A model generated the notes under the pieces. That model worked only from the letters and a program-made list of their open reading frames with translations, was not told the DNA's origin and did not search any database. Shown here one piece after another: positions 1-27,676 of a stretch of DNA of 38,723 nt. Position 1 is the first letter of the stretch. Every line of letters begins with the position of its first letter. Made by a program: the position numbers and the translations under genes. The stretch covers positions 56,213 to 94,935 of the forward strand of contig PLMS01000031.1 of the NCBI GenBank assembly GCA_003142575.1, in the 5' to 3' direction. Source of the DNA: Ignavibacteriota bacterium (GTDB lineage: Bacteria > Bacteroidota > Ignavibacteria > UBA10030).

Positions 1-899
1 ACCTCTGCTACGATTCTCTGCAAGGCTATTTGAGTGATCGATCGTATTTCGGAGCAATCGTTGGGAGATATGGAAACCGCATTGCCAAAGGCAGGTTTCA
101 ATTGCACGGACAGACATATCAAGTAACTGTGAATGATGGACAGAACCACATTCATGGAGGAATAATAGGATTTAACAAAAAGCTCTGGGAAGGAAAAATA
201 ATCGACAGCGGGAGTGAACCTTCTGTTGCATTAACATGCATCAGCCCGGATAAAGAAGAAGGCTATCCCGGAACAGTTATTCTCACAGTCACGTATACAC
301 TCACAGAAAAAAATGAATTACGCATTGAGTACAAAGGAACGACCGATCAAACGACCATACTCAATCCAACGCATCATTCCTATTTTAATTTATCTGGTTC
401 CTTTACGAATTCCATTCTTGATCATTTCCTGAGCATCGAATCTGATTTTATTACGACGGTAGATCAGGAGCTCATCCCTACTGGTGCGCATACCGGTGTG
501 AAAAATACACCGTTGGATTTTCGCCTTCCTCTTTCGGTTGGGTCGCGCATCAACGAGAACCATCGGCAGTTAGTGTTTGGAAACGGATACGATCATAATT
601 GGATTTTGCGAAATCATAATGGAAAGGTTCGCAAAGTTGCAGAACTTTACGAACGGCAAAGCGGACGCCTCATGTCTGTTTTCACCGACCAACCGGGTCT
701 TCAATTCTATTCCGGAAATTTTCTCGGCGGGACTGTGAGAGGGAACGATGGCTTTGTGTATAAAAATAGATCGGGCCTTTGCTTAGAAGCCCAATGCCCT
801 CCTGATTCCCCCAACAAACCTGAATTTCCTTCTGTTGTTTTGAAAGCAAACGATATATATAGACAAACGACAGTTTATCAATTCTCAACTAAACAATAA
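1..899 (+). CDS. galM: Aldose 1-epimerase (galactose mutarotase), 5'-truncated by window edge
   Basis: Frame 3 is open upstream of the listed TTG start and reads LCYDSLQGYLSDRSYFGAIVGRYGNRIAKGRF; also NPTHHSYFNLSG and GYDHNWIL motifs of aldose 1-epimerases. Confidence 0.93.
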   Translation, partial: LCYDSLQGYLSDRSYFGAIVGRYGNRIAKGRFQLHGQTYQVTVNDGQNHIHGGIIGFNKKLWEGKIIDSGSEPSVALTCISPDKEEGYPGTVILTVTYTLTEKNELRIEYKGTTDQTTILNPTHHSYFNLSGSFTNSILDHFLSIESDFITTVDQELIPTGAHTGVKNTPLDFRLPLSVGSRINENHRQLVFGNGYDHNWILRNHNGKVRKVAELYERQSGRLMSVFTDQPGLQFYSGNFLGGTVRGNDGFVYKNRSGLCLEAQCPPDSPNKPEFPSVVLKANDIYRQTTVYQFSTKQ

Positions 900-917
900 C
901 TGGAAAGGAACTCTCGC

Positions 918-2543: not shown

Positions 2544-2567
2544 TTGCAGAGCACTATTCTTCATGTC

Positions 2568-2610
2568 ATATCTGACCGAAGTTCATTCAACTTCGGTCAG
2601 ATATATTTTT
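2568..2610 (+). terminator. Rho-independent terminator
   Basis: Perfect 16-bp stem atatctgaccgaagtt / aacttcggtcagatat (2568-2583, 2589-2604), 5-nt loop cattc, followed by atattttt. Confidence 0.85.
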
Positions 2611-2633
2611 CGCACATTTAATCAATAAATATT

Positions 2634-5450: not shown

Positions 5451-5489
5451 AAATCTATTTTAAGACTCATCACTTTGAGGAAAACGCTT

Positions 5490-7196
5490 ATGACTAAGAG
5501 ATTCGTTGCAACATGTTTTTGTGTATTCATAATCATAATTCTCGGGTACGGACAAAACGCAGAAATAACCGGCAAGTGTGTTATTCCCGATGGTCCGGAA
5601 TGGACACGGCATGCTGTGTTTTACCAGATCTATCCACAGACATTTTACGATTCTAACGGAGATGGCATTGGAGATCTGAATGGTATCATTCAAAAATTGG
5701 ACTACGTTAAAAGCCTCGGCGTTAATGCAATATGGCTCAATCCGTTTTTTGATTCGCCCTTTCATGACGCCGGATACGATATCCGTGATTATTACAAAGT
5801 GGCGCCCCGATATGGAACCAATGAAGATGCGAAACGACTATTTCAAGAAGCCCATAAGCGCGGCTTAAAAGTGATCTTCGATTATGTCATCACCTATACC
5901 GCCATCGATCACCCATGGTTCATCGAGTCATGCAAACAAACACCAAACAAGTATTCGAACTGGTATGTGTGGAATGATAATGTTTGGAAAATGGAAGAAG
6001 GTGAATTTGCAAATCGATTTATCCAAGGATATGGACAACGAAACGGTAATTTCATGCGGAATTTCTACTGGTCGCAGCCGGCATTGAATTTTGGTTTTGG
6101 TCAACCTGATACGAATAAGAAATGGCAGCTTCCGACAAATCACCCCGATGTTCTGGCAATGCGCGAAGAATTAAAAAAGATCTTCTGCTACTGGATGGAT
6201 ATGGGAGCCGACGGCATACGCGCTGACATGGCAGGAGCACTTGTCAAAGGGACAGATGTAAACGGTGACACGAAAAAGTTTTGGAAAGAGATACGTCAGA
6301 TCGTCAAAGAAAAATATCCACAGGCGTTCATGGTTTCCGAATGGTCATATCCGAAAGATGCGCTTGATGGAAATTTCCATGCCGATTTCTTCCATTGGTT
6401 TGATGGCTACAATGATCTTACGCAAAAAGAAAGCTGGCGCATCCTGAATGGATATTCCGAAGGGCATAGTTATTTTGACAAGGAAGGCAAAGGGAACATT
6501 GCGTATTTCCTTTCGAAATACATGGAGCAATACAACGAAACAAAATCCAAAGGATATATTTTATTACCGCTCGGCAATCACGATAACGCACGATTGAACG
6601 TGAACCGCACCCCTGATGATCTGGAACAAATCATGGTTTTCGGAATAACTATGCCGGGGATTCCATTTATATATTATGGAAATGAAATTGGTATGCGTGA
6701 ATTGTACGACATGCCTCAAATCGAAGGCGCATATAAACCTCGCGCAGGTGCACGTACTCCTATGCAGTGGACATCGGGAATGAATCGTGGCTTTTCGACA
6801 ACCGACTTCTCCAAACTCTATCTTCCAGTTGATACCAGCAACGATGCGCCAAATGTTGAGACCGAGCAAAAAGATCCTACTTCACTACTGAACCGCGTGA
6901 AAAAGCTCATACAATTAAAGCTTGATGAACCGGCATTGGCTGCTTATGCTGAATTTATCCCACTCTATGCAAAAGAAAATACATACCCCTTTGTCTATGC
7001 TAGAGCCAACGGGAAAGATGTAATTTTGGTGATTCTCAATCCTGCTGAAAAAGCAGCAACAGCTGAGTTCCAAATGAATGTGCCCTACAAAAAGCTGCAA
7101 TTACTTGCCGGGAAAGAAATAATAATTACTAAGAAAGTGAAAACACTGAGTTTCAAGGTGCCCGGAACGACCTATGCGGTGTATAAGTTGAAGTAA
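5490..7196 (+). CDS. GH13 alpha-amylase-family protein, secreted
   Basis: VFYQIYPQTFYDSNGDGIGDLNGI, GADGIRADMAG (region II), FMVSEW (region III), LGNHDNAR (region IV). ATG at 5490 preceded by gagg is preferred over the listed TTG 5475. Region I is atypical (see findings). Confidence 0.9.
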   Translation: MTKRFVATCFCVFIIIILGYGQNAEITGKCVIPDGPEWTRHAVFYQIYPQTFYDSNGDGIGDLNGIIQKLDYVKSLGVNAIWLNPFFDSPFHDAGYDIRDYYKVAPRYGTNEDAKRLFQEAHKRGLKVIFDYVITYTAIDHPWFIESCKQTPNKYSNWYVWNDNVWKMEEGEFANRFIQGYGQRNGNFMRNFYWSQPALNFGFGQPDTNKKWQLPTNHPDVLAMREELKKIFCYWMDMGADGIRADMAGALVKGTDVNGDTKKFWKEIRQIVKEKYPQAFMVSEWSYPKDALDGNFHADFFHWFDGYNDLTQKESWRILNGYSEGHSYFDKEGKGNIAYFLSKYMEQYNETKSKGYILLPLGNHDNARLNVNRTPDDLEQIMVFGITMPGIPFIYYGNEIGMRELYDMPQIEGAYKPRAGARTPMQWTSGMNRGFSTTDFSKLYLPVDTSNDAPNVETEQKDPTSLLNRVKKLIQLKLDEPALAAYAEFIPLYAKENTYPFVYARANGKDVILVILNPAEKAATAEFQMNVPYKKLQLLAGKEIIITKKVKTLSFKVPGTTYAVYKLK

Positions 7197-8563: not shown

Positions 8564-10999
8564 CTAATTCGACAAGATTGAAATATTTCCGCTATTGAAT
8601 GTTTCTGATTCAGCGATCAATCGAATTGTTCCACTTTGACCTTCAATAGATCGAACGACGACCAGACATTGTCCATGAAATGCTTGAGATCGATCGGACT
8701 GAAATGATTCATGACTCGTTGGATCTCCATTCCCTACTGCTACAATCGTTCCGGGTCCGCTTAATCTGAACCTTATTAGATTCTTCGCCACAGGCACCAT
8801 ATTGCCATCCTTGTCGACTATCCTAACCATAATAAACGAAAGATCAAGTCCATCAGCATGTATCATCGCATTCTCAGTTGAAAGCGCCAAACCTATTGCC
8901 TGCCCTGCTGTCTTCTGGACGTCTGAAGCCCATGTGTTGCCGTTTTTATAAGCAACAACTTTCAATTCCCCAGGTTCATATTTCACATCGTCCCAGCGCA
9001 ACCTGTATTGAAATGGTTCTTTCTTTTTTCGGCCTAGCGATGTGCCGTTCAGAAATAGTTCAGCTTCATCACCTGAAGTATATACATAAACAGGCGTCAC
9101 CATCCCAATTCGCTCCAGCCAGGACCAATGCGGGAGAATATGAACCATCGGCAAGTCTGGCCGCCATCTTGATTGATAGAGATAAAATCTATCCTTTTTA
9201 AATCCACATAGGTCAAAAATGCCAAAATAGGAACTGCGCGAAGCGGATGTGTCATCGAAAAAAGGTGCTGGTTCTCCAAGATAATCAAAGCCGGTCCAAA
9301 CGAATTCGCCTGCAACGAAAGGATTCTTATCCTGACCCTCAAATTCAACATCAGGAATGTTTGCCCACCAAGGTGTATAAAGATCGTATGAGCTTACCTG
9401 ATTATTATGCACACTGTTCGATCTATCTCCGCTGACCGGAAAGAAATATTCGCTTATAGTGCTCACACAAGATGCAGTTTCGCTTCCATATATTGGTACT
9501 TTTGGATTCTCTTCCCGGAATTTCTTGTACATATGCGGTTTATAATTGTAACCAAAGAAATCGACTGAATTCTGAAATCCGTTAAAACCGGCATCCGGTT
9601 TATCGCACCCTGCTGTCACCTGACGCGTTGGATCTTCTGAATTGAAAATCTCTTTCAACTTCTGAGCAAGAATTCCATTCCCTTGCTCCCGCACTTCATT
9701 TCCAGCACTCCAGCCAATGACGCAAGGATGATTCCGATCCCGACGCACAAGTGCACGAATATCTTTCTCATGCCATTTCTTAAATAAGGTACTGTAATCA
9801 TTCGGTGTCTTTCCTTGTTCCCAACAATCAAACGCTTCGTCTAAAACGAGCATTCCCATCCCGTCGCACAAATCGAGCAGTTCCGGTGCAGGTGGATTAT
9901 GACTTGTTCGGATGGCATTGCATCCCATTTCCTGGAGAAGTTTAATTTGGCGCTCAAGAGCTTTTTCATTTACTGCCGTTCCAAGCAATCCAAGATCATG
10001 ATGATTGCACACTCCTTTGATTTGGACTCTTTTGCCATTAAGAACAAATCCATTATCCGATGTGAATTGTACAGCCCTGATACCAAACACTGTGATGGTT
10101 GAATCAACAATGTGTCTGTTTTGTTGAATGTATGTTTTTGCCTGATAAAGATTGGGAGATTCCAGATTCCAGAGTCGAGGATCCTGAATAATAATTTCAG
10201 TCTCTGATTTTTCCGTACGGCCTGCAGAAATTTGAACGGTGGTTTCTCGACTCGATCCAACAATTTTATTTTTTCCATATTCGTTGATTTCCACAATCAA
10301 GGTAATTTCTGTAGATTTACCTGATTGGTTTTCGATTTCATTTTGAATATGCAGTGTTGCTTGATCTTGGGTAATTCTCGGAGTCGTTACAAATGTTCCC
10401 CAGTGCGCAATGTGCACTGGTGCATTCCTCACCAACCAAACATTTCTATATATACCACCGCCTGGATACCATCGTGAAGAATTGGCTGGATTATCTAACC
10501 TTACTGCTAATACATTCTCTTTGTCAAAATAAATGTACGGCGTCAGTTCAAGACGAAATGAAGCATACCCATATGGCCATTCTCCAACATATTTACCATT
10601 CAACCACACTTGTGCGTGAGACATTGCGCCGTCAAAGTCGATGAAGAGATGTTTTTCCTTGTCCTCCTGAGAAAGATTGAAATGTTTCCGATACCATCCG
10701 ATACCAGCCCATGGTAATTTGCCGGTGCTACTCGGAAGGTCCATCCGAAAGGGTCCTTCAATACCCCAATCATGTGGAAGATCGAGCTTACGCCAGTCTG
10801 CATCGTTTAAATCTTGTCTCTCTAATCCGGCAGGCTCTTCTTTTGTAGAGCCATCCGGCATCGACCCAAGACGAGAGAATAGCCATCCGGAATTAAAAGA
10901 TGTGCATGAATGATTCTCACTCGTACGAGGATATGAATGAACAACTACAACTGCATGCGTCAAAACAATTGCCAATGATAGCCATCGAATGTTCTTCAT
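8564..10999 (-). CDS. GH2 beta-galactosidase
   Basis: DLPHDWGIEGPF, IRTSHNPPAPELLDLCDGMGMLVLDEAFDCWE, IGWSAGNEV acid/base motif, PIYGSETASC nucleophile motif; signal peptide. Confidence 0.93.
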   Translation of the reverse strand: MKNIRWLSLAIVLTHAVVVVHSYPRTSENHSCTSFNSGWLFSRLGSMPDGSTKEEPAGLERQDLNDADWRKLDLPHDWGIEGPFRMDLPSSTGKLPWAGIGWYRKHFNLSQEDKEKHLFIDFDGAMSHAQVWLNGKYVGEWPYGYASFRLELTPYIYFDKENVLAVRLDNPANSSRWYPGGGIYRNVWLVRNAPVHIAHWGTFVTTPRITQDQATLHIQNEIENQSGKSTEITLIVEINEYGKNKIVGSSRETTVQISAGRTEKSETEIIIQDPRLWNLESPNLYQAKTYIQQNRHIVDSTITVFGIRAVQFTSDNGFVLNGKRVQIKGVCNHHDLGLLGTAVNEKALERQIKLLQEMGCNAIRTSHNPPAPELLDLCDGMGMLVLDEAFDCWEQGKTPNDYSTLFKKWHEKDIRALVRRDRNHPCVIGWSAGNEVREQGNGILAQKLKEIFNSEDPTRQVTAGCDKPDAGFNGFQNSVDFFGYNYKPHMYKKFREENPKVPIYGSETASCVSTISEYFFPVSGDRSNSVHNNQVSSYDLYTPWWANIPDVEFEGQDKNPFVAGEFVWTGFDYLGEPAPFFDDTSASRSSYFGIFDLCGFKKDRFYLYQSRWRPDLPMVHILPHWSWLERIGMVTPVYVYTSGDEAELFLNGTSLGRKKKEPFQYRLRWDDVKYEPGELKVVAYKNGNTWASDVQKTAGQAIGLALSTENAMIHADGLDLSFIMVRIVDKDGNMVPVAKNLIRFRLSGPGTIVAVGNGDPTSHESFQSDRSQAFHGQCLVVVRSIEGQSGTIRLIAESETFNSGNISILSN

Positions 11000-11088: not shown

Positions 11089-13686
11089 CTACTTCTTCAG
11101 AGAAATTGACTCAATCTCTAATTGTGAATCGCCTTTGCTTCTTTCGTCGTTATTCGGATTTACAACGACCTGAATACAATCCAACAGTCGAAGATTCATC
11201 TTGTTACCGATCGAATCGCTTTGCATTTCCCATTTCTTTGACAAGAATAATGGATAGGAATTAGGCAACAGCAATGCACTTCGGCACAACATTGAAGAAA
11301 TTGGAATCTCAATTTCCTGCCAATGATGTTTGACCCTAACATCTATTCCGTAACTCTTTCCATCTGAGAGTATAAAATTGATTCCGGTTTGGCACATCGA
11401 ATCATTTTCAACGCGCGCTTTGAGTACCACAGTTCTATAATTATCGAGCCGAGCCGCGAACGGTTTTATCAAATCATTGACATTCAATTGAAATCCAAAC
11501 GGAACTATTTGTTTTTTTGAAGATGAACTATGAATTGATAACGATGTTTCATCACTTTTCGATCCATTCAGATATTCAATGGAGTATTTCCTTGATCGAT
11601 CATAATGAGGAAACACGAAATCTTTTCTATCTCTGGTAACATTGAATAGAGCAATCGGTTCATCAGCACCGAGAATTTTTAGATTCCAGTAATTACTCGC
11701 TGTGACATCCCACTTCCCCGGTGTACCTTGAACTCCACCGGGGAATGTATATTCTTCCTCCCCAGATTCTACGCCAACACAATATTCAAGATTTCCTGAT
11801 TGAAGAATCTTGGGCGAATCCGCCACGACATAATTAAAGCCACTGATATATTTCAAAGGATGTTTCTCAAATTCCCGCCAGCCAAGTCGACGGATGTATA
11901 ACGATGCATTGAAAACAGATTGCTCGCCAGCAATCTGAAATTTGAATGCAGACAGATCCGATTCATTTGAATATTTATCGGTTTTATTCACAACATAAAT
12001 ATTAGAAGCAATAGGTAGCGGGGTGTAAAGCCCTTCCAAGAACTTTCCTTTTTTCGAAAGATATTTATGGAGATTTTTATTATCCGCGCTCTTTGCTATG
12101 ACAAGATAATTCCCGGGTTTAAGTAATTGGCCTGACTCAAATGTTTTTGCACTCCTCCACTTTGTATCGCTCAGAGGATAAAGTACGTATTCCCTTCCAA
12201 GGTCAGGAAGATTGATTTTCATCTGTCTCTGGTTCCAAAATAATCGTGCCACTTGCTGAGACATACTTGTAGGTTCAAACGGATCCCGAAGCCATAACAC
12301 ATCTGGATAGATTTCCAACTTCCAAATACCTTGCTCAAGTTTATCTAAAAAGTAAGCACCCGTACCATCATATTGGACAATGGATGAATTTCCACAGCCA
12401 GCAATATGCTGAAGTAATAAGACATTTTTTGGCTGGGTTGAAGTCGAATTGGAATAAATGAATTCAGCATCACCATTCATTTCACTCAAATCTTCTTCAT
12501 AGCTCACACGAAAATCATCGAACTGATTATTCGCCGGATAACTGCCAAATGATTTATTCCTCGGTAAATGATGAAACGCCCTTCCAGCGATCATCAAGCT
12601 CAGTGCTTTTGAAGGTGTGTACAGCAGATTCATAAAATGCGTTGGGTATTCTGTATTACTCCATGCTATCTGCGTTGGATCGTAACTAAACATCGTTGCA
12701 AACTGCATTCCTGCTTCACGAAAACTACGAACAACAGCAGGATACATATACGAGCCACCTACATCAGCGACATCGAATTCGTATACCATCTTCGCCTTCG
12801 TCGAATATCCGGGAACACTCTCGGAAGGGATATCATACTTATTTACATTTAGAAGATAATTCCCCCTAAGCATTTTTTGGTGAACCAGATCCGTGGGATA
12901 CCATTGAAATGAAATCCCATCGACATTTGCTTTGGTGACGGCATTCGCTTGAACATCGCTCCAATTTTGGCTGATGTTATAGAAAATTGGTTTTGTGAAT
13001 CCAGCTTGCCGCAATACACCAACCATTTCGTTGATATAGTCTGTTACTTCCTGGCCATTTTCCGGATGTGTAGGTTCATTGATTATTTCGATCGCAATGA
13101 TCCATGGATCGTTTTTATAGGATACTTTTTTGTATGGATTCGTATGCGCAATGAATTGCTTGAGATAATTTCTTTCGGCCTCTCTGGCTTTCGGATTCGT
13201 AATCAATTCCAATCTTGGATACTTCTGTGAAAAACCTGGCGAAGTCTCTTCAGGTTCTGGATAGCCATTTCCCCACCATGCAATCGGCGTGATGATGCTT
13301 TTAATATTGCGTTCTGCCAACTTTGCCAGGAGGTAATCAAAAAGATCGAGATGCTCATTCTTCAAAATATTTCCGTCTCCATCCGATATCTCTCTGTCCC
13401 ATACATGAACACGAAAGGCATCGAAACCAAGCCGAGCCATCTGCTCAACATCCAAGTCAATCGCTTTTTTAAGAGATAGTCCCAACCTCTTATGTGCCCG
13501 ATATGAGTACGCAAATGGTACAGTGTAATTCACACCAAATAAACTCACTTCATCATTTGAACCATTCCATTTCAGATTTCCTTCCTTGTCAACATACACA
13601 TCCGCCAGTGTTTTTGGATCAGTCTGAGAATGGGTAACGAGAGAAACAACGAAGAGTAGAAGACAACAATGGAAAAGTAACTTCAT
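11089..13686 (-). CDS. Secreted clan GH-A (GH5-like) glycoside hydrolase, 865 aa, family/subfamily uncertain
   Basis: Signal peptide; GFDAFRVHVWDREISD, WIIAIEIINEPTHPENG (acid/base NEP), KMVYEFDVAD (candidate nucleophile E); long beta-rich C-terminal half. Confidence 0.75.
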   Translation of the reverse strand: MKLLFHCCLLLFVVSLVTHSQTDPKTLADVYVDKEGNLKWNGSNDEVSLFGVNYTVPFAYSYRAHKRLGLSLKKAIDLDVEQMARLGFDAFRVHVWDREISDGDGNILKNEHLDLFDYLLAKLAERNIKSIITPIAWWGNGYPEPEETSPGFSQKYPRLELITNPKAREAERNYLKQFIAHTNPYKKVSYKNDPWIIAIEIINEPTHPENGQEVTDYINEMVGVLRQAGFTKPIFYNISQNWSDVQANAVTKANVDGISFQWYPTDLVHQKMLRGNYLLNVNKYDIPSESVPGYSTKAKMVYEFDVADVGGSYMYPAVVRSFREAGMQFATMFSYDPTQIAWSNTEYPTHFMNLLYTPSKALSLMIAGRAFHHLPRNKSFGSYPANNQFDDFRVSYEEDLSEMNGDAEFIYSNSTSTQPKNVLLLQHIAGCGNSSIVQYDGTGAYFLDKLEQGIWKLEIYPDVLWLRDPFEPTSMSQQVARLFWNQRQMKINLPDLGREYVLYPLSDTKWRSAKTFESGQLLKPGNYLVIAKSADNKNLHKYLSKKGKFLEGLYTPLPIASNIYVVNKTDKYSNESDLSAFKFQIAGEQSVFNASLYIRRLGWREFEKHPLKYISGFNYVVADSPKILQSGNLEYCVGVESGEEEYTFPGGVQGTPGKWDVTASNYWNLKILGADEPIALFNVTRDRKDFVFPHYDRSRKYSIEYLNGSKSDETSLSIHSSSSKKQIVPFGFQLNVNDLIKPFAARLDNYRTVVLKARVENDSMCQTGINFILSDGKSYGIDVRVKHHWQEIEIPISSMLCRSALLLPNSYPLFLSKKWEMQSDSIGNKMNLRLLDCIQVVVNPNNDERSKGDSQLEIESISLKK

Positions 13687-15167: not shown

Positions 15168-16895
15168 TTACTTCATCAAAATCATTTTCATTGTAGTCAT
15201 AGTTTCGGAACTCACCAGTTTGCAGAAATAAATACCGCTGCTTAAATTTTTGGCGGTAAATGTAACGTCGTGAGATCCCGCAATTTGAACTTCGTTCACC
15301 AGAACTGCCACTTCTCTTCCGAGGATGTCGAACACTGAAAGTCGTGTCATACCTTTGACTGCGAGTGTATACGAAATCATTGTGCTCGGGTTGAAGGGAT
15401 TGGGATAGTTTTGACTTAAGGCGAACTTCCCTGGCAATGAATTGGGTGTTCGTGAAACGCCCGTAATCTGTTCCGGGAACCAGTTCAAATCGCCAAGAGC
15501 TTTGCCATCGGTTCCTGCTGTTTTAAGAGTTGTATTTGAATATCGCAGATTTTCTGGTACTGGATAACCTTGCGTTGATGCCCAATTTGATGCCACATTA
15601 GGCCATGTGCTATTGTTTGACGGTGGATCGGAAAGTGGATAAACATATGGACGATAACCACCTGCAACACCACTGACAGTACCACCCCAGCATGTATCTG
15701 CCATAGTAATCATATTGGCGATTGATGTTGCTACAAGTGTAGAGTTAAACCCTGGATCAACGCTGTCGTTGTTTGCAACAGTGATATTGGGCCATGTCGT
15801 TTTATCTGTGAGAATGCCCGGCTGCGCTCCGATGAACTGTGGAACGTGGAGATTAAGCTTTGTCCACTCCGTATAGAATTGTTGTGGCCAGAAATAAGCA
15901 TTATTTGTAATAGTAAGATGACGATCTGATTCTGCCATATTATACGGTGATGATTTTAAGGTAGAAAGTGAATCCAAAATGATTAAACCGGAGTCCCAAC
16001 CGCCTCCGACAATATTCCATGAATTGGGGGCGCTTGGCGCTGAGGCACTGTAGAAGATATTGTTTGCAATAATTGCATGGTGCATCTGATATAGATCGAA
16101 AATACCGCCACCGCTCGACATAAAGACAGTGTTATGCTGGAAATCTAGCCATGAGCAACCATATCCTGCTCCGCCAAGAACATAGCCGCCCGTGAAGAAA
16201 AAGGTGTTATTCCGGAAATAAGCTGTATCACATGGAATATCTGTAGTACTAACTTCGATCCATGCAAATCCTGGATTCTGTGGATTATCATCTTGATTAT
16301 TGCGGAATTCACAGTTCGTCACATAGAAACTGCAATGGCTATGCCCCCATGTGTCAAACAAGTTTGGCGTTCCGGAACCTGAAATGTTTTCGAGGACGCA
16401 ATGATCAAAAAAGAACACATTGTAATCTCCAGATGGATTAACGAAACGACCGGTATTCACGAGACCATCAGGGCGAGTACCAAGGAAATACAATCCTTTT
16501 AATGTAAGAGTGTCATTTCCCTGCGGTTGAAAGAAATATCCAATAGAAGTATTATCAGGGTTAAGATAAGGTGCAATAACCGGCGGATGACTGGTTACCG
16601 GATTAGCACGGCCGATGATTTTGACGCTTCCCTTAACCGTGAGTGGAGCTGTCATATAATATACGGTATCGAGACTACCGGTTTGTTGCAGAAGAAACAC
16701 TGTATTCGGTTTGACATATCCGCCAGCAATAGTATCGCTGTTAATAACATCATCGAGCGATCCCGTAGGCCATGTCGAAGGATATGCACTTATGCGTACG
16801 GTATCAGGAACTCCTGCGATCATTGTTGCTGTTAAGGACAACAGCAACAACACAGTAAAAAACAGTGAAATGAACATCTTTTTCATAATAAACAT
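15168..16895 (-). CDS. Secreted right-handed beta-helix (pectate-lyase-fold-like) protein with T9SS sorting tail
   Basis: Repeated short N/F-x-N-N-x-F coils (NCEFRNNQ, FRNNTFFF, FQHNTVFMSSGG, IIANNIFY, ITNNAYF); C-terminal LSQNYPNPFNPSTMISYTL...LSSGIYFCKLVSSETMTTMKMILMK. Confidence 0.8.
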   Translation of the reverse strand: MFIMKKMFISLFFTVLLLLSLTATMIAGVPDTVRISAYPSTWPTGSLDDVINSDTIAGGYVKPNTVFLLQQTGSLDTVYYMTAPLTVKGSVKIIGRANPVTSHPPVIAPYLNPDNTSIGYFFQPQGNDTLTLKGLYFLGTRPDGLVNTGRFVNPSGDYNVFFFDHCVLENISGSGTPNLFDTWGHSHCSFYVTNCEFRNNQDDNPQNPGFAWIEVSTTDIPCDTAYFRNNTFFFTGGYVLGGAGYGCSWLDFQHNTVFMSSGGGIFDLYQMHHAIIANNIFYSASAPSAPNSWNIVGGGWDSGLIILDSLSTLKSSPYNMAESDRHLTITNNAYFWPQQFYTEWTKLNLHVPQFIGAQPGILTDKTTWPNITVANNDSVDPGFNSTLVATSIANMITMADTCWGGTVSGVAGGYRPYVYPLSDPPSNNSTWPNVASNWASTQGYPVPENLRYSNTTLKTAGTDGKALGDLNWFPEQITGVSRTPNSLPGKFALSQNYPNPFNPSTMISYTLAVKGMTRLSVFDILGREVAVLVNEVQIAGSHDVTFTAKNLSSGIYFCKLVSSETMTTMKMILMK

Positions 16896-17066: not shown

Positions 17067-20000
17067 TTAATTAAATCTCCATCGAATTCCTAAATCCGCA
17101 GTCAAACCATAATTATATTCTGCTGTAGAAAATCCATTTTTTCGAATCGTATAAACATCTGATTCTTTAGTAAGATCGTTCACGTCGAAATATACCTCTA
17201 TATCGTGCCACGGCAACCCTTGCTTTACAGAAAGATCCCATCGAAGGTATTTGGTTTTATCCGATCGGAGAGTCCACCAAAAGTTTGAACCATTAAACAC
17301 GTTTGACTGATAAATCATTGAAGCAAGTATAGAAAATTTACCGTAATCATAACCCAGAGAAAGGTTCACAATATCGTTGGGCTGCTGGTAAAGTCTATCG
17401 GTAAACGATGTATCAAGATACGAAGTCTTAACAGGATAGGTATTTGAAAGAACGGTGCGGGTGAACGGGAATTTACCTTCAGAAAATATATGCGTGTAGT
17501 TAATATTCATAATTAAATTGTTTAGTGGACCCGGTAAATACCAAAAGTGCGTTTGCCACTCGATTTCAATTCCCCATACTTTTAGCTGATATGGATTATT
17601 GATGGAGGTGGTATCGGTGTACGATTTTCCCGTGTAAGCCGGTAAACCATAAGATAATGCTTGGGCAGTGTCGAGGTGGACATTTGCGGGATTGTAGATT
17701 TGGTCATCAATAATCTTTAGAAATGGACTAATTGCGAATAAACCAACTGTATTATCATGTATCGATACTTGAAAATCGTAATTACGTGCCTGCTCCGGTT
17801 TTAATGCGGGATTATTCCACACAACCCACGAACCAGAACTGCCGGCAACATCTTCTCTTGGAATGATGCTAGTAAAATCCGGATACGCTATGGTGTTTGT
17901 ATAAGAAGCTCGAAGACTAATATTTTCGGACAGATTATATTTTATGCTAATATCAGGCAACCAATAACCATGGTACTCGTCTGCTGTATCCAGAGTGTAA
18001 GGGATTGAAAGAGGATATGGATTTGTTTGGTCAGCATTTCCTATGAAGTGAGCAGCTATGTAAGAGGTTCTGAGTGCTTGATATCGTATACCGGGAATAA
18101 TTGTAATCCATGGTCCTATGTTCAATGTTGCCATCAAATAGCCAGCGCTCCGTATTTCATGTCCCGAATAATCATTAGCTACGCTTTGATAATCGTCAGG
18201 ACGAAAATCTGGAACTGTTACCTGTTGTGTTTGTGAGGCTCCAATAGTTCTCATCACACTAATAATTTTATCGATCGTACCTGCATTCACCGCCGAATAG
18301 AGCTTATAGTCACCTCTGAAAAATTTGCCAAAATTCATGTTGGCATTATACAATCCCGAAATAGGAAATCCAGTGTTGCCCGTTGCATCAAAATTATACG
18401 GTGCGTCAGCTAACCACGGAAGAGCTGCCACAATCGATGCTTGGTAACCCTTTGATGCAGCGCCATTATTGAGACTGCCGCCATAGTAATCATAATTGTA
18501 ATATCGAGTGGTGTATTTATAGGCACCGCCGCCTTTTACGCTTACAGAGAGCAGGTCTGAAAGATTGAAATTATTTTCAATATTAAAAGTGGCTTGTTTG
18601 TCGTCCTGCTTATTAAAACTGGTCCATGCATTATTCGTTGTCCAAAACATTCTGCTAAGATTGATTAAACTTTGTGCTTGAGGAACAACTGCCGACGGGG
18701 CAAGATTAGACGGAATATTTTTGGCTCCCGAAGATTGTTGCTGAAAATCCACATACCAACCATTTGGCACATGATTATCGGAATATGCATTCGCTAACTT
18801 TGCCTCTATTTTTAACGTTCCAAATGTTTGCTTATAACTCAAGATATTTGTGACAACATTAAAGTCAGATTTCTCCAACTGTGTTCCCAGTATAATTCTA
18901 TCTTGTGAACTTTGTGCATAACTTGTTGTATACTGATCAGAATGTTGCTCTGTCATCGTGGTACTATGACTGTAGATATTTAAAAGAGCCAGTTCACCAT
19001 TGGGTATCTTATAATCCAATGTTAATGTTCCATCATATCGGTTTTGGATAGATGAAATAAAGGAAAGCTTTGTATATTGCATTCCGATCGTATCGGGATT
19101 TTTTGTTACAGGTAAGTTGCCATTAGTATAATATGCTCCGAGTTGATTCGAAGTTAAGTTTTGCCTTTGTGCAATACCTTGGACAAACACACCAAACTTA
19201 TCATCAAAAAATCTTTTTTCTATGTCTGCAGCAAATTTGTAATCCTTGTACGAATCCATCAAATCTTTGTATCCACCTTGTGCAAGAAGGGAAATTGATG
19301 GCTCACCGTCAGGATTGGATTTTGCACGACGGATATCGAAATTTACGGTGCCGCCAATAACTGCAGCATCCATATCCGCTGTTACTGTTTTATAGACCTC
19401 AATTCCTTCAAGACTATTTGATGAAATCATACTTAAATCGGTGCCGCGATTGCTAGAACCGGTTGCAGGGAGTGCGACACCATCTATTGTGATAGAATTA
19501 TATTTTGGTTCAAGTCCTCGCACAACTATTTGAGTTGCTTCGCCGCCGCTACGTACGAGCGAAACACCAGGCAATCTGCCAATGGATTCCGCAGCATTGG
19601 CATCAGGAAGTTCTTGTATACGCGCAGATGAAACTATATTTGCAATATTATTTGAAGCCAATTGCTGATTGATGGCCGTGTTCTGACCACGTGCCTGGGC
19701 TGTAATAATTACTTCTTGTCCTTCAATTGCCTGAGGCAATAAACGGAATTCCTGTTCAAGAACACCGTTTTCGGGAACTGTCACCTGTATGGTGACCGTC
19801 TGATATCCAACATAGGATATCTTTAATGTTTGCTGTCCAGCCGGTACACCATAGATTGTTATCAAACCACCATTATCTGCAGCAGCTCCCAAACCTGTAT
19901 TGAGAACTACAACATTCGCTCCAATAAGAGGTTCACTTGTTACCTTATCAAAAACATGTCCTTTGATAGACCCAGACCCGAAAGCGTATAAAGATTGAAA

Positions 20001-20069
20001 GGTGAAAGAAAATGTTGCTACGATAGCACAAACAAGTGAAGCCCGTAAACGAAATGTACCAATAGCCAT
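17067..20069 (-). CDS. TonB-dependent receptor with N-terminal carboxypeptidase-regulatory-like domain
   Basis: GSIKGHVFDKVTSEPLIGANVVVLNTGLGAAADNGG; plug RIQELPDANAAESIGRLPGVSLVRSGGEATQIVVRGLEPKYNSITIDGVALPATGSSNRGTDLSMIS; C-terminal barrel ending in RWRFN. Confidence 0.93.
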   Translation of the reverse strand: MAIGTFRLRASLVCAIVATFSFTFQSLYAFGSGSIKGHVFDKVTSEPLIGANVVVLNTGLGAAADNGGLITIYGVPAGQQTLKISYVGYQTVTIQVTVPENGVLEQEFRLLPQAIEGQEVIITAQARGQNTAINQQLASNNIANIVSSARIQELPDANAAESIGRLPGVSLVRSGGEATQIVVRGLEPKYNSITIDGVALPATGSSNRGTDLSMISSNSLEGIEVYKTVTADMDAAVIGGTVNFDIRRAKSNPDGEPSISLLAQGGYKDLMDSYKDYKFAADIEKRFFDDKFGVFVQGIAQRQNLTSNQLGAYYTNGNLPVTKNPDTIGMQYTKLSFISSIQNRYDGTLTLDYKIPNGELALLNIYSHSTTMTEQHSDQYTTSYAQSSQDRIILGTQLEKSDFNVVTNILSYKQTFGTLKIEAKLANAYSDNHVPNGWYVDFQQQSSGAKNIPSNLAPSAVVPQAQSLINLSRMFWTTNNAWTSFNKQDDKQATFNIENNFNLSDLLSVSVKGGGAYKYTTRYYNYDYYGGSLNNGAASKGYQASIVAALPWLADAPYNFDATGNTGFPISGLYNANMNFGKFFRGDYKLYSAVNAGTIDKIISVMRTIGASQTQQVTVPDFRPDDYQSVANDYSGHEIRSAGYLMATLNIGPWITIIPGIRYQALRTSYIAAHFIGNADQTNPYPLSIPYTLDTADEYHGYWLPDISIKYNLSENISLRASYTNTIAYPDFTSIIPREDVAGSSGSWVVWNNPALKPEQARNYDFQVSIHDNTVGLFAISPFLKIIDDQIYNPANVHLDTAQALSYGLPAYTGKSYTDTTSINNPYQLKVWGIEIEWQTHFWYLPGPLNNLIMNINYTHIFSEGKFPFTRTVLSNTYPVKTSYLDTSFTDRLYQQPNDIVNLSLGYDYGKFSILASMIYQSNVFNGSNFWWTLRSDKTKYLRWDLSVKQGLPWHDIEVYFDVNDLTKESDVYTIRKNGFSTAEYNYGLTADLGIRWRFN

Positions 20070-20321: not shown

Positions 20322-20335
20322 TGCAAACGTTTGCA
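20322..20335. promoter_or_regulatory. Candidate LacI-family operator 1
   Basis: Perfect palindrome tgcaaacgtttgca in the intergenic region upstream of the TonB receptor. Confidence 0.75.
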
Positions 20336-20500: not shown

Positions 20501-20516
20501 CTGCAAACGTTTGCAG
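20501..20516. promoter_or_regulatory. Candidate LacI-family operator 2
   Basis: Perfect 16-bp palindrome ctgcaaacgtttgcag; same core as operator 1, 180 bp centre-to-centre. Confidence 0.78.
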
Positions 20517-20745: not shown

Positions 20746-20767
20746 AAAACCGTTATAAAACCGTTTA
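20746..20767 (+). repeat. Tandem 11-bp direct repeat aaaaccgttat / aaaaccgttta upstream of the membrane-tethered regulator
   Basis: Two adjacent near-identical 11-mers ending 33 bp before the ATG at 20801. Confidence 0.45.
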
Positions 20768-20800: not shown

Positions 20801-22153
20801 ATGGCGTTTGCTTTTGGCTGCGTTTGTTCTATATTTCAATTTATGGGTGAGCAAAACAATGTAAATATACCCTCCAAAAATGAAATAAAATCCATCGTCA
20901 ATGCCGTACTGCAAAGCAAGGATTTTAAAGATTCGCCTATATATTCAAACCTGCTTTCGTACCTTACACAGTCCACTCTATCAAAAAGAATTCCAAAAGA
21001 AATCACTATCGCCATTGATATATTCGGTAAGGATTCCGGTTTTAATTCGAATAAAGATTCGACAGTTCGTCATCACATTCTCATATTACGTAATAAACTG
21101 GATAACTATTATAGAAACGAAGGCAAAGAAGATAAATTCAGATTGGTTATCCCTAAAGGACATTATGAGATTCAAATCATACCTTCAAAAATTGAACATC
21201 CCAAGATATTGGATCGTATCATATCATCATTAAAACGCTGGGAAGTAGTCGTTATCGTCATCCTCTTATTCATTAATCTTTTTGTCATTTTTCGGCAAAC
21301 CAGTGTAAACTCTCTCTCATCCGCTCCTCAAACACCGTATTTTGTTGATTCCCAGGATAAGATCTGGGGTTCTTTTTTTAAAAATGGTTATCCTGTGAGT
21401 GTCATCTTAGGAGATGATTTTTGGCTGGATGAATACAGCCCGGAATTTAAACGCTACCGTCAAGTCCGGGATTGGAAAATATCTTCTGAAAATGACTTAT
21501 CCAATTTTTTAATAAAACATCCTAAAGCAAACTTGGTGAAGTCCGAAATAACAGGAATTCCATTTGGTGCCGCCGATAATTTAGTGGATATTCTTCACAT
21601 TGTATATCATTTTCAAAATGACGTATCTCTCTCTATGTCTTCACTGCTCTCTCTCGATAAAATTCGAGATCACAACATCATTTATATTGGTGAATTCAGA
21701 AACCTGCAAATTTTAAATAAGATTTTTTATAAAACACCTATCCGTTATCAGTATTTCCCGGACGAGCGATTGTTTATTGTTGATGAAAAAAGTAATGTCA
21801 TAGATACATTTCTCCGGGTTGAAGCACCTTACGAGCAGCAGAATAAGTATAATGTTGACTACTCTTTATTAATTAAAATGCCCGGATTCTCGAAGGAAAA
21901 TTTCATGTTTATTGTCGGGTTTGGGTATGGAGGCCGTTTGGAACGAACGAAAATGCTAGCAAATTCTGCATTACGGATGAAGTTTATAGAAGATATTAAT
22001 AAAATAAACAAATCTGTACCGGAATATTTTATTGCTCTCTTCGAAGTCAAGAGCATCGAAAGAACCGGTTTTACCAATGAACTAAAATACTTTAAGGAAA
22101 TACCAGGGAATTTCTTTTCAGAATCCTCCCCGGATAGCAGTAAAAAGGATTAA
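20801..22153 (+). CDS. Membrane-tethered regulator: N-terminal winged-helix-like domain, single TM helix, extracytoplasmic C-terminal domain
   Basis: N-terminal region SKDFKDSPIYSNLLSYLTQSTLSKRIPKEITIAIDIFGKDSGFNSNKDSTVRHHILILRNKLDNYYRNEGKEDKFRLVIPKGHYEI resembles the FxxSxRxxxFLxYVVE...LKExxIGxxVFGRxxxYDxxxDxIVRVxAxxLRxRLxxYY..EG..DxxRIxxPKGxYxP domain I know from Acidobacteria-type regulators; TM WEVVVIVILLFINLFVIF. An alternative start is MGEQ at 20843. Confidence 0.7.
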   Translation: MAFAFGCVCSIFQFMGEQNNVNIPSKNEIKSIVNAVLQSKDFKDSPIYSNLLSYLTQSTLSKRIPKEITIAIDIFGKDSGFNSNKDSTVRHHILILRNKLDNYYRNEGKEDKFRLVIPKGHYEIQIIPSKIEHPKILDRIISSLKRWEVVVIVILLFINLFVIFRQTSVNSLSSAPQTPYFVDSQDKIWGSFFKNGYPVSVILGDDFWLDEYSPEFKRYRQVRDWKISSENDLSNFLIKHPKANLVKSEITGIPFGAADNLVDILHIVYHFQNDVSLSMSSLLSLDKIRDHNIIYIGEFRNLQILNKIFYKTPIRYQYFPDERLFIVDEKSNVIDTFLRVEAPYEQQNKYNVDYSLLIKMPGFSKENFMFIVGFGYGGRLERTKMLANSALRMKFIEDINKINKSVPEYFIALFEVKSIERTGFTNELKYFKEIPGNFFSESSPDSSKKD

Positions 22154-22336: not shown

Positions 22337-23395
22337 TTAGTGCTGTGCGACTTTATAGTGAACAAGAGACAATTCTTTTAGTATCTTTGCACTGTATTCA
22401 GGTGTAATATCTCTTTGCGGTTCAGCCAACATTTCATATCCCACCATAAACTTCTTAATACTTGCGGATCTTAGCAGCGGCGGATAAAAATGCATATGAA
22501 GATGCCATTCGCCGTGGTCTTTTCCATCCGTTGGTGCCTGATGCAGTCCGGCAGAATAGGGAAAAGCTGTTTTAAAGAGATTATCATACTTGACAGTTAC
22601 AACACGCAACGCTTGAGCGAAATCTTTTTTCTCTTGTATCCTCAATTCGAGAATATTGGCAATCTTTCTTTTGGATAGGATCATCGTTTCATACGGCCAG
22701 ACAGCCCAGAACGGAGTGACAATGGCAAAGGAGGCGTTTTCGAAGACAACCCTTTCTTTCAGCCGCAGTTCCAGCTTAAGGTAATCTGCTAAGAGGCTGC
22801 GCTTCTTCTTGGAATAATACGATCTGAATTGCTTCAACTCTTTCAGAGGTTCCATAGGAATACTTTCCTGCGCCCAGATTTGTCCATGGGGATGGGGATT
22901 ACTATTCCCCATGATCGACCCTTTGTTTTCGAATATTTGCACATAATTGATATGCGGTTGTTTACCTAATGATTTGAATTCGTCTTGCCAGATAGTGATA
23001 ACATCTTCTATTTCGCTCTCTTTCATTTCTGCGAGAGTGAGATCATGTCTGGGTGAAAAATTGACAACTCTGCAAATTCCATTTTCAGATTTCGCAATCA
23101 ATAAATCATTTTCATTTATCTTTCCCTGAGGAACATCTGCAAGCAGCGCCGAGAAATCATTTGTAAACACATACGTATTTGCATACTGAGGATTGATTTC
23201 TCCGTTCGCACGCTTATTCCCAGGGCATAAATAACATTCGGATTCATACGCAGAGACTGGAACATTCGTCAAAGCAGATATCTCTCCCTGCCAAGGACGT
23301 TGAGTTCTCTGAGGAGAAACCAATACCCATTCTCCGGTCAAGATATTTTTCCTTCGATGAGGAGAATGAATGAGTTCAGACTGTTGCATGTTCAT
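22337..23395 (-). CDS. galT: Galactose-1-phosphate uridylyltransferase
   Basis: NSNPHPHGQIWAQESIP active site (HPH), ECYLCPGNKRANGE Zn-type CxxC, RHDLTLAEM; overlaps galK 3' end by 20 bp. Confidence 0.95.
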   Translation of the reverse strand: MNMQQSELIHSPHRRKNILTGEWVLVSPQRTQRPWQGEISALTNVPVSAYESECYLCPGNKRANGEINPQYANTYVFTNDFSALLADVPQGKINENDLLIAKSENGICRVVNFSPRHDLTLAEMKESEIEDVITIWQDEFKSLGKQPHINYVQIFENKGSIMGNSNPHPHGQIWAQESIPMEPLKELKQFRSYYSKKKRSLLADYLKLELRLKERVVFENASFAIVTPFWAVWPYETMILSKRKIANILELRIQEKKDFAQALRVVTVKYDNLFKTAFPYSAGLHQAPTDGKDHGEWHLHMHFYPPLLRSASIKKFMVGYEMLAEPQRDITPEYSAKILKELSLVHYKVAQH

Positions 23396-24557
23396 TCACA
23401 GCAATAATGTTCGTTCCAGAGCCGATGGAAGTAACATACGTTTTCAGATCTCTCTTGAATTGATGTTTGTACTTTTCGATCACCGTAGTACTTGTTTGTT
23501 CAATGTGATTCGTTTCAATGAGATTGATTGTACAGCCGCCAAACCCGCCGCCCATCATCCGCGAACCATAGACATGCGGATTGTCTTTGACTAATTCCAC
23601 CAAGTAATCGAGTTCTCGACAACTCACTTCATAGTCTTGACTTAATCCTGCGTGTGTTTTTATCATATATGACCCGAAGGCTTTTAAATCACCCTTTTCC
23701 AATTCTCGACACGCATCCAAGACTCGATCATTTTCTTCTACGACATATTTACATCTGCGATATATTGTAGGATCCATCATTTGTTTGCTCTTCTGCAGCA
23801 TTTCGAGAGAAACATCTCTTAAGGAGTTTACTTCCGGATAGTATTTTTTTATGAGAGCCACTCCCTCTCTGCATTCTTCTCTCCTACGATTATATTCCGA
23901 TGATGCTAATGAATGGGAAACTCGTGTATCAAAGAGAACGATGGAAATATTGGGAAAGGCAAAAGGATAATATTTATATTCCAGCGATCTACAATCAATG
24001 CGGAGAACCTTATCTTTCTCACCAAAGATATTGATGTATTGATCCATAATACCACACTGCACACCGACGAATTCATTCTCTGCTTTCTGGGCAAATTTCA
24101 CCAATGCAAGGGCATCAATTCGCAATTCGAAGATATAGTTTAGGGCAAATGCTAAACCCGCTTCGATTGCGGCTGAAGATGACATCCCTGCGCCGATGGG
24201 AATGTCTCCTCCAAAAACACAATTAAATCCTCGTATGCTATACTTCCCTTTGACGAACTGATCTACCACCCCCATAAGATAATTCGGCCATCCTTTTTTT
24301 GAGGACCGAAGATCATCGAGTGAAAACGCATACTCATCGTTCATGTCCATCGCATGCACATTGCACTGTCGATCACTCCGCGGACTCATTGCAAAATATA
24401 TTGCTTTATCGATAGCCGCCGGAAGGACATATCCCATGTTATAATCCGTGTGCTCGCCAATAAGATTCACTCTTCCCGGCGAACGAAATAGGAGGGGTTG
24501 CTCTTTGAATTTTTCCCGAAAGAGTGCTGCAGCAGATTCAACAAGGCTCATAGACAT
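23376..24557 (-). CDS. galK: Galactokinase
   Basis: SPGRVNLIGEHTDYNMGYVLPAAID signature, GDIPIGAGMSSSAAIE GHMP kinase motif, GSRMMGGGFGGCTINLI. Confidence 0.96.
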   Translation of the reverse strand: MSMSLVESAAALFREKFKEQPLLFRSPGRVNLIGEHTDYNMGYVLPAAIDKAIYFAMSPRSDRQCNVHAMDMNDEYAFSLDDLRSSKKGWPNYLMGVVDQFVKGKYSIRGFNCVFGGDIPIGAGMSSSAAIEAGLAFALNYIFELRIDALALVKFAQKAENEFVGVQCGIMDQYINIFGEKDKVLRIDCRSLEYKYYPFAFPNISIVLFDTRVSHSLASSEYNRRREECREGVALIKKYYPEVNSLRDVSLEMLQKSKQMMDPTIYRRCKYVVEENDRVLDACRELEKGDLKAFGSYMIKTHAGLSQDYEVSCRELDYLVELVKDNPHVYGSRMMGGGFGGCTINLIETNHIEQTSTTVIEKYKHQFKRDLKTYVTSIGSGTNIIAVNEHATV

Positions 24558-24788: not shown

Positions 24789-26465
24789 TTACCAGAACCA
24801 AATATTGAGCAGAATAAAGACGATCAAAGAAATAATTGCATAGAATTCCGGTCTCTTTATGAACGGGATATCCTGATCATGCTTCTCTTTGGTCAATCCT
24901 TTGACCAAGCCGACAAGTTCTTCTTTCGGCCTCTTTTTTGTCCACATGCTTACCCCAACAGTTACGACAACGCAAATCAACCATGCCCACCATGCCCGCC
25001 AGAAGTTTGCTGCCATGTCACTCTGAACACTCGACATCGTGATGATACTTTCTGCAAACCAGTGGAACTTGACAGCTAAATACATGAGGAACGAAGAGAG
25101 CATTCCTGCGATGAGTCCCCAAAAGGCACCATTCGGTGTAATCCACCAGATAAACATACCGAGCAGCATCGTTCCAAAGAGCGGGGCATTGACCCATGAA
25201 AAAATTGCCTGCATATAATCCATGATGCTGGGAAAACCTTTTGCCCAGTATGCAGTTACTAAGGAAAGAATGACACCGACAATAGTCGATGCACGTCCCA
25301 TCCAGAGAAGATTTGCATCGGATGCTTTTTTGTTCAAGACAGATTTATAAATGTCATAAGTCCATACCGTATTGAATGCACTGATGTTCCCTGCTTGTCC
25401 CGCCATAAATCCAGCGAGCAATGCTGTCACTCCTAAGCCAACTAAACCTGGTGGATAATACCGAGCTATTAAGAGAGGCAACGCGGAATCATAATTCACC
25501 TGCCCTCCATCGTGTAATAATTTGAATCCACTTTTTGGATCAATCGAAAGAGCGATTGCTATTAATCCTGCAAGGATAACAATAAAAGGTAAAGCCATCT
25601 TAAAAAATGATGCAAGAATCGGTGTCATACGTGCCGAGCGTAAATCCTTTGCCGAGAATGCACGCTGCACCACGAGAAAGTCCGTCGTCCAATATCCAAA
25701 AGACAATACAAATCCCAGACCAAGCACAATACCGCCCCAGTGAACAAGCATTCCATTTTGCGCTGGATTTGATGAAGATGACCATAATGTGGTGAAGGAA
25801 CCCACAGGGAAGTGGGCATTAATTCGAGCCATAATTTCACTGACACTTCCTATTTCTATTATTCCAAGAATCGAAACAAGAAATAGCCCAAACCAGATCA
25901 AGAAAAATTGTACAATTTCAGTAAAGATCGCCGACATTAAACCGCTCATTGTGACATATCCTGCAACGGTAATTGCGGAAGCCCACATGCTATAATCCCA
26001 ATTCCAGCCGAGGAATGTATGAAGTACAAGTGCCATAGCATAGAGATTAATTCCAGAGACGAGAAGCGTCATAATGGCAAAGGAAATGCCATTGAGCACC
26101 CGTGTCTTCTCATCGAAACGAAGTTTCAGATAGCCCGGAATAGAATTGATTTTGCTGCTGTAATAAAATGGCATCATATAGATGCCAAGAAAGAGCATTG
26201 CAGGAATTGCACCGATCCAATAGAAATGTGCTACGTACATTCCATATTTAAACGTATTTCCCGTCATGCCGAGTAATTCGAGCGCTCCAAGATTTGCCGA
26301 AAGAAAAGCAAGACCTGCAACCCAGAAAGAGTTCTTTCTTCCTGCAAGGAAAAAGTCCTCTTGACTCTTCGTATATCTGCGAAGATACAAACCAATGCCA
26401 AGGACAAAGCCGAAATAGATGATGATTATTAACCAATCAATATGTGAAAGTCCAATAGCTTCCAT
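24789..26465 (-). CDS. Sodium:solute symporter (SSS/SGLT family), probable galactose transporter
   Basis: DFFLAGRKNSFWVAGLAFLSANLGALELLGMTGN, SFGYWTTDFLVVQRAFSAKD; operonic with galK/galT. Confidence 0.93.
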   Translation of the reverse strand: MEAIGLSHIDWLIIIIYFGFVLGIGLYLRRYTKSQEDFFLAGRKNSFWVAGLAFLSANLGALELLGMTGNTFKYGMYVAHFYWIGAIPAMLFLGIYMMPFYYSSKINSIPGYLKLRFDEKTRVLNGISFAIMTLLVSGINLYAMALVLHTFLGWNWDYSMWASAITVAGYVTMSGLMSAIFTEIVQFFLIWFGLFLVSILGIIEIGSVSEIMARINAHFPVGSFTTLWSSSSNPAQNGMLVHWGGIVLGLGFVLSFGYWTTDFLVVQRAFSAKDLRSARMTPILASFFKMALPFIVILAGLIAIALSIDPKSGFKLLHDGGQVNYDSALPLLIARYYPPGLVGLGVTALLAGFMAGQAGNISAFNTVWTYDIYKSVLNKKASDANLLWMGRASTIVGVILSLVTAYWAKGFPSIMDYMQAIFSWVNAPLFGTMLLGMFIWWITPNGAFWGLIAGMLSSFLMYLAVKFHWFAESIITMSSVQSDMAANFWRAWWAWLICVVVTVGVSMWTKKRPKEELVGLVKGLTKEKHDQDIPFIKRPEFYAIISLIVFILLNIWFW

Positions 26466-26601: not shown

Positions 26602-26618
26602 TTTGCAAGCGTTTGCAG
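26602..26618. promoter_or_regulatory. Candidate LacI-family operator 3, promoter region of the gal operon
   Basis: tttgcaagcgtttgcag (minus strand ctgcaaacgcttgcaaa), same core as operators 1 and 2 with one mismatch; lies between lacI and the SSS gene. Confidence 0.72.
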
Positions 26619-26632
26619 AAGCATAAAAAAAT

Positions 26633-27646
26633 TTAGGTCGATCCACGAACAATCAACTTTGTTTCCAAAATCATTGTCTCCGGCTCCATGAGCTTGTCTT
26701 CGATAGTATGGACGAGTATTTCCGCAGCCCTTCTTCCCATTTCAAAAGAAGGTTGTTCGACTGTTGTAATCGTGGGATCAACCAAGCTGGTGATCTTGTT
26801 ATTCGAAAATCCCATAATAGCAATATCATCGGGAATTTTCAATTTTGACTCTTTAATTCTTTGGAAAGCTCCGATGGCAACAGGATCATTCACGGCAAAA
26901 ATCGCATCCGGGAGCATATTTTCTTTCAGGAGATCATCCATAGAACTATATCCGTCTTGTTCATGCAATCCCCCGTACCGGATAAATCCATTGTGTGAAA
27001 CAATATGAACTTTTTTCAGCGCATCTCTATAACCGTTTAATCTGTTTTTACAGATGCCCAATTCCTTGGGTCCGGCAAAATGTGCTATCCTTTTATATCC
27101 TTTATTCACCAAATAGGTAACTGCTTCGGAAGCGCTTTGATAATCGTCAATGACAACTTTGCTTGCGTTCACATCATCGCATACACGATCAAAAAACACT
27201 AAAGGAATTTTCCGTCTCAGGAGATCCTGAAAGTGTTCTCCATTCTTTGTGTTCTGCGAGATTGAAACGACAACTCCAGCAACCCGATGATGCATCAGCA
27301 TATTCGTATGGAGGACTTCCCTTTCATAACTTTCATTCGATTGGCAAAGAATGATCGTATACCCAGACTGGTATGCTACTTCCTCTATTCCACTGATCGC
27401 TGAAGAAAAGAAATCGTGTTTAATTTCCGGGACAATAACACCTATGGTCATTGTGCGATTACTTTTTAAACTTTGTGCAATGGGATTTGGCGAGTATCGT
27501 AATTCTTTCGCAACTTTTCTTACAAGCTCTTTTGTTTCATTCTTTATATCCGGGTGGTCGCTTAATGCACGCGATACTGTTGAGGCGGATATTCCCAACT
27601 TCTTAGCGATATCTATGATAGTGACATTTCTTAAGGTATGTTTCAT
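26633..27646 (-). CDS. LacI-family transcriptional regulator
   Basis: VTIIDIAKKLGISASTVSRALSDHPDIKNETKELVRKVAKELRYSPNPIAQSLKSNRTMTIGVIVPEI; ATG at 27646 preferred over the listed TTG 27667. Confidence 0.96.
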   Translation of the reverse strand: MKHTLRNVTIIDIAKKLGISASTVSRALSDHPDIKNETKELVRKVAKELRYSPNPIAQSLKSNRTMTIGVIVPEIKHDFFSSAISGIEEVAYQSGYTIILCQSNESYEREVLHTNMLMHHRVAGVVVSISQNTKNGEHFQDLLRRKIPLVFFDRVCDDVNASKVVIDDYQSASEAVTYLVNKGYKRIAHFAGPKELGICKNRLNGYRDALKKVHIVSHNGFIRYGGLHEQDGYSSMDDLLKENMLPDAIFAVNDPVAIGAFQRIKESKLKIPDDIAIMGFSNNKITSLVDPTITTVEQPSFEMGRRAAEILVHTIEDKLMEPETMILETKLIVRGST

Positions 27647-27662
27647 TTTTTGCAATCGTTCC

Positions 27663-27676
27663 CGCAATCGTTTGTA
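27663..27676. promoter_or_regulatory. Candidate degenerate LacI operator 4 (autoregulation)
   Basis: cgcaatcgtttgta, 11/14 match to tgcaaacgtttgca, 17 bp upstream of lacI ATG; a second gcaatcgtt copy at 27652-27660. Confidence 0.5.

Follow-up and report, generated by a model that had tools for sequence, protein, structure and literature searches.

In a galactan locus of an Ignavibacteriota bacterium, sequence comparison identifies a genuine and conserved one-component regulator, membrane-anchored and of the ToxR/CadC kind, with a sensor domain that carries no name, encoded divergently from a TonB-dependent receptor (TBDR). In the reading that we prefer, with a probability of about two in three, this ToxR/CadC-like protein would act on tandem repeats and, in response to a periplasmic signal, alter transcription of the TBDR operon and of its own gene, with a LacI-type repressor as a second input. 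The argument draws on predicted domain make-up and topology and, by comparison, on homology, divergent pairing and motif enrichment. The stretch analysed, called the window throughout, comprises 38,723 nucleotides of contig PLMS01000031.1. Its gene content is that of a galactan locus:

17067-20069, minus strand: divergent TonB-dependent receptor, TIGR01782 TonB-Xanth-Caul (CarboxypepD_reg, plug and barrel)
15168-16895, minus strand: secreted protein encoded after the receptor in the TBDR operon, with a type IX sorting tail and a weak match to a beta-helix
13701-15068, minus strand: GH53 endo-galactanase with type IX sorting tail
8564-10999, minus strand: GalB beta-galactosidase (GH2)
22337-23395, minus strand: galT, galactose-1-phosphate uridylyltransferase
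23376-24557, minus strand: galK, galactokinase
24789-26465, minus strand: sodium:solute symporter
26633-27667, minus strand: LacI-family regulator, probable reader of the palindromes described below

The galactan cluster also contains an 865-aa protein (11089-13686) with a sub-threshold GH5-like match, possibly a glycoside hydrolase, and an adjoining sugar locus (1-7196) carries an aldose epimerase, a symporter, a GH31 with PA14 and an alpha-amylase.

The open reading frame of the regulator spans 20801-22153 on the plus strand (450 aa), and its coordinates, strand, length and divergent orientation from the receptor gene were as the original prediction had stated them. The true start is probably the ATG at 20843, because the congener G004 lacks an ATG at the position equivalent to 20801 and has an in-frame stop upstream. 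The reading frame is not a chance one, since full-length homologues from distant taxa are 25-30% identical over about 400 aa. The regulator gene is single-copy in its own genome and patchy in occurrence, being found in 6 of the 32 genomes of its family and 10 of the 197 of its class. A scan of genome contigs yielded 80 homologous loci, from Ignavibacteria, KSB1, other Bacteroidota, Neomarinimicrobiota, Gammaproteobacteria and one Novosphingobium; the search of viral contigs for relatives found none. The family matches no Pfam or NCBIfam name, and the single-sequence search of the regulator against Pfam, NCBIfam and PDB returned nothing. No description of it was found in the accessible parts of the open-access literature on TTRs and PULs, and the family, its sensor domain and its predicted operator appear undescribed within that literature. 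The parts of the protein are as follows:

20843-22153, plus strand: regulator coding sequence, 436 aa when read from the probable ATG (the nominal ORF begins at 20801)
20870-21190, plus strand: predicted winged-helix DNA-binding domain at the N-terminus (residues about 10-116), a divergent relative of OmpR/PhoB (Trans_reg_C)
21239-21292, plus strand: single transmembrane helix WEVVVIVILLFINLFVIF, from hydropathy and AF2, positive residues on the N side
21362-22114, plus strand: predicted extracytoplasmic alpha/beta domain, unnamed, from AF2; nearest PDB folds BcsB chains (weak)

The AF2 model of the full protein (pLDDT 84) consists of a helical and winged N-domain, one long helix over the transmembrane segment and a C-terminal alpha/beta domain. 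The N-terminus is predicted to lie inside and the C-domain to be extracytoplasmic, because lysine and arginine are denser on the N side of the transmembrane helix: the 15-residue flanks of the 80 homologues hold on average 3.3 such residues on the N side versus 1.5 on the C side, and the N-side count is the greater in 61 homologues and the smaller in 6. Pfam and NCBIfam searches for a kinase or receiver domain in the regulator found none. The layout proposed originally, a winged-helix (wHTH) domain, one transmembrane helix and an extracytoplasmic domain (about 250 aa) with neither kinase nor receiver, is borne out by these results.

The N-terminal domain had been described as wHTH-like and non-OmpR in type. 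The AF2 model agrees with the first half of this description, with helices at 32-46 and 53-59, a recognition helix at 74-92 and a hairpin wing. The novelty claimed in the second half fails on profile comparison and on a member-wise Pfam scan, which together rule out a non-OmpR domain: 75 of the 77 family wHTH domains weakly matched Trans_reg_C at E<=1 (best E 1.2e-6), and hhalign of the 77-domain family profile against 22 OmpR-type domains from related genomes gave Prob 95.9 and E 6e-9 (controls with unrelated profile pairs, Prob 0.3 and 0.03). The former label is explained by the absence of single-sequence matches in Pfam, NCBIfam and PDB, the window member alone falling below the Trans_reg_C threshold. 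A profile search of PDB sequences with the N-domain placed an OmpR-family response regulator first, at a non-significant score. In the model, helices 12-23 and 26-29 occupy the place of the OmpR-type strands beta1-beta4, and the canonical four-stranded platform before helix 1 is absent; the CadC topology, as given in the available text of PMC5430869, was the reference for this platform. Sequence and model together indicate that the N-domain is a divergent relative of OmpR/PhoB effector domains with a trimmed platform, not a canonical member, and because it is homologous to Trans_reg_C the architecture is ToxR/CadC-like. The same wHTH module is carried by many rhizobial plasmid proteins, some annotated as adenylate cyclase, whose N-domain is about 44% identical over about 100 aa to that of one family member in a comparison of N-domains only.

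The divergent arrangement recurs across the family. Neighbourhoods were counted at 53 non-gammaproteobacterial loci, which are related and do not represent independent samples. At 50 of them the gene immediately upstream is divergent, and at 27 it is a TBDR; in 34/53 a TBDR stands within the first two divergent genes. As first downstream gene a TBDR occurs once in 53. Further divergent partners are GH2, GH28/pectate-lyase-like, sulfatase, alginate lyase, sugar MFS and PPIase genes. A recurrent operon (L043, L092, L055, L056, L085, L094) joins the TBDR to an unnamed protein of about 755 aa for which Pfam gives little or nothing; some of these loci have a PorV/FadL-like protein next. At L150 (G004:C43:62000-81000) a lacto-N-biose phosphorylase and GH42 set takes the place of GH53/GalB opposite the regulator-TBDR pair, with a GH88 gene downstream. 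Gammaproteobacterial members mostly lack the divergent TBDR, and those at L059-L109 adjoin DUF2239 and malonyl-CoA decarboxylase genes.

The correlation of regulator and TBDR distances (Mantel r 0.47, p 1e-4) supports co-inheritance of the two overall. Strict receptor-regulator coupling is contradicted by comparison of the window with locus L031 of genome G006, where the regulators are 76% identical and the facing TBDRs 17% identical. Receptors have therefore been exchanged, and neither receptor nor ligand is fixed, since so close a relative faces an unrelated TBDR.

Alignment of the window and G004 intergenic regions revealed one strongly conserved block, also found at G006/L031, amid mostly diverged sequence. 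It contains a direct repeat on which the original prediction was silent:

20746-20765, plus strand: candidate operator, the direct repeat AAAACCGTTATAAAACCGTT with an 11-bp period, shared with the congeners G004 and G006

This site is the sole match with 0-2 mismatches in the window's genome, and exact matches occur in both congeners at the orthologous position. In the family as a whole, AACNGTT is present in 25 of 51 non-gammaproteobacterial upstream regions versus a mean of 5.5 and a maximum of 13 over 200 shuffles. The EM motif nAAtAACnGTTAaTAaCnnG is a 10-bp tandem direct repeat, with a log-likelihood of 189 versus 62-76 when the same start was applied to three shuffles. The tandem motif, AAC-N-GTTAWTAAC, is about tenfold enriched upstream of the regulators relative to other intergenic DNA (2.89 sites per kb versus 0.27, and 0.12 in coding DNA), in a density test whose matrix was trained on the target regions; the fairer leave-one-out figure is 27 of 51 upstream regions versus 30 of 3113 control segments scoring >=12. 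The window site, which shares the half-site and has an 11-bp period, was not recovered in leave-one-out with the 10-bp-period family matrix. Tandem repeats of about 10-11 bp are the operators expected of OmpR/PhoB domains, the PHO box being built of head-to-tail 11-nt repeats according to the available text of PMC4415409, and the candidate motif enriched upstream of family members matches this geometry. At L067 an identical 20-bp candidate operator, GAATAACTGTTATTAACATG, is found both 130 bp upstream of the regulator and at L067:11677; the latter site is intergenic and likely a second target.

The window repeat lies about 100 bp from the regulator start and about 675 bp from the TBDR start, and this proximity makes autoregulation a better fit, in this genome, than direct control of the TBDR. 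The shared intergenic region also contains LacI-type palindromes, on which, as on the lacI gene of the galactan locus, the original prediction had nothing to say:

20322-20335, no strand: LacI-type palindrome TGCAAACGTTTGCA in the shared intergenic region, exact
20502-20515, no strand: second LacI-type palindrome TGCAAACGTTTGCA in the TBDR/regulator intergenic region, exact
26604-26617, no strand: LacI-type palindrome with one mismatch, upstream of symporter-galK-galT

Only 0.19 such palindromes are expected in the window. In G006/L031 the palindrome occurs three times without mismatch, once in the equivalent intergenic region. Together with the lacI gene at 26633-27667 and the position of the direct repeat, these sites would suit a reading, in our judgement unlikely, in which the regulator is mainly autoregulatory or acts elsewhere and the TBDR operon is under the LacI-type repressor through the two palindromes. 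However, G004 keeps the regulator, the TBDR and the repeat, and a search of its TBDR-regulator region found no LacI palindrome there; moreover, across the family the regulator usually has a TBDR or a glycan gene as its divergent neighbour. From the sites in the window, its TBDR operon probably has two inputs, the regulator and a LacI-type protein. The claim that the regulator controls the divergent TBDR operon is well supported comparatively, by the divergent TBDR/glycan operons and the enriched direct repeat, but, given the two LacI-type palindromes in the shared region, control from the membrane is unlikely to be exclusive in this genome. In many uncultured bacteria the regulator gene adjoins divergent glycan-uptake receptor genes, and the protein therefore probably switches these on or off from the membrane.

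The nature of the signal depends on the C-domain, which AF2 folded in isolation with pLDDT 93.4 and pTM 0.90. Its mean column identity is 36%, versus 51% for the N-domain, which makes it the more divergent of the two, and a Pfam search with the C-domain family matched no family. BcsB chains were the best structural neighbours in both Foldseek searches; in the one with the isolated domain they account for 7 of the top ten PDB matches (7l2z, 9fmt, 6yg8), at weak scores (E about 0.008, range 0.005-0.02; best probability 0.97; TM 0.3-0.36 by query length); chains of GH67 and GH115 glucuronidases followed at weaker scores. The available text of PMC11379886 describes BcsB as a periplasmic cellulose synthase subunit with flavodoxin-like and carbohydrate-binding repeats. 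Homology to BcsB was not supported by sequence, either with one E. coli sequence or with a 7-sequence profile (hhalign Prob 0.9), and the similarity kept is one of fold class alone. A PF03170 scan of 148 genomes of the phylum gave one weak BcsB, with no match in the window's own genome. The resemblance is a weak lead from models, not an assignment; with the galactan locus, it makes glycan sensing by the C-domain plausible.

The sensor might alternatively detect the status of the envelope or outer membrane, such as receptor assembly or unfolded outer-membrane proteins. Among the nearest relatives, L031 and L032 have a PPIC-type PPIase gene (SurA-like in L031) as first divergent gene and the TBDR behind it, as this would predict; many other neighbours, however, are glycan enzymes or transporters, and the best structural neighbours, BcsB and GH67/GH115, are glycan-system proteins, which makes envelope sensing quite improbable. 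That the C-domain is cytoplasmic or the N-domain does not bind DNA, the adjacency being incidental, would agree with the lack of a Pfam match for the window member alone but is very hard to reconcile with the lysine/arginine bias, the profile homology and the motif enrichment.

The preferred reading, a signal-responsive regulator acting with a LacI-type repressor, can be put as a sequence of steps, for which we infer DNA binding, ligand, sign of regulation and interplay with LacI. The cytoplasmic, divergent OmpR-type wHTH would bind the tandem 10-11-bp direct repeats near its own promoter in the divergent intergenic region, while the single transmembrane helix would anchor the protein. The extracytoplasmic alpha/beta domain would sense a signal in the periplasm; the likeliest candidates are an oligosaccharide derived from galactan and the state of the cognate uptake system in the outer membrane. 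Sensing would cause the DNA-binding domains to dimerise or reorient, changing transcription of the divergent TBDR operon and of the regulator's own gene, and the LacI-type repressor would probably add a second, cytoplasmic sugar signal at the same TBDR operon. More broadly, and tentatively, it is possible that TBDR glycan operons of Ignavibacteria, KSB1 and their relatives are under a widespread, unnamed class of membrane-tethered regulators separate from HTCS and ECF systems, which would combine a BcsB-like glycan-sensing domain in the periplasm with a conserved tandem-repeat operator, AAC-N-GTTAWTAAC.

Most of what is known about the control of polysaccharide uptake comes from Bacteroides, with its SusR, HTCS and ECF/anti-sigma systems. 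The present family suggests that in related lineages, most of them uncultured, this task falls to a simpler membrane regulator in the style of ToxR; the family's predicted operator makes target genes findable by sequence, and its unnamed sensor domain is a defined target for ligand screening.

The HTCS, SusR and ECF/anti-sigma regulators of Bacteroides polysaccharide loci, as presented in the available text of PMC3878776, resemble this family in being membrane- or periplasm-coupled regulators of TBDR glycan operons. Unlike them, the regulator has no sigma factor and, in Pfam and NCBIfam, none of the histidine kinase, receiver and AraC domains that define an HTCS. The ECF/anti-sigma route was ruled out, as no STN signalling domain was found on the window receptor and no sigma/FecR-type gene among the scanned neighbours. 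With the ToxR/CadC-like TTRs, as far as the available text of PMC10269533 and PMC5430869 describes them, the family shares a cytoplasmic OmpR-related wHTH, a single transmembrane helix, a periplasmic C-terminal sensor and the lack of phosphotransfer domains. It differs from them in the helices that replace the beta1-beta4 platform in the AF2 model, in a sensor domain outside any Pfam family, and in its taxa and context, which are those of glycan and TBDR loci, whereas ToxR and CadC serve virulence or acid stress.
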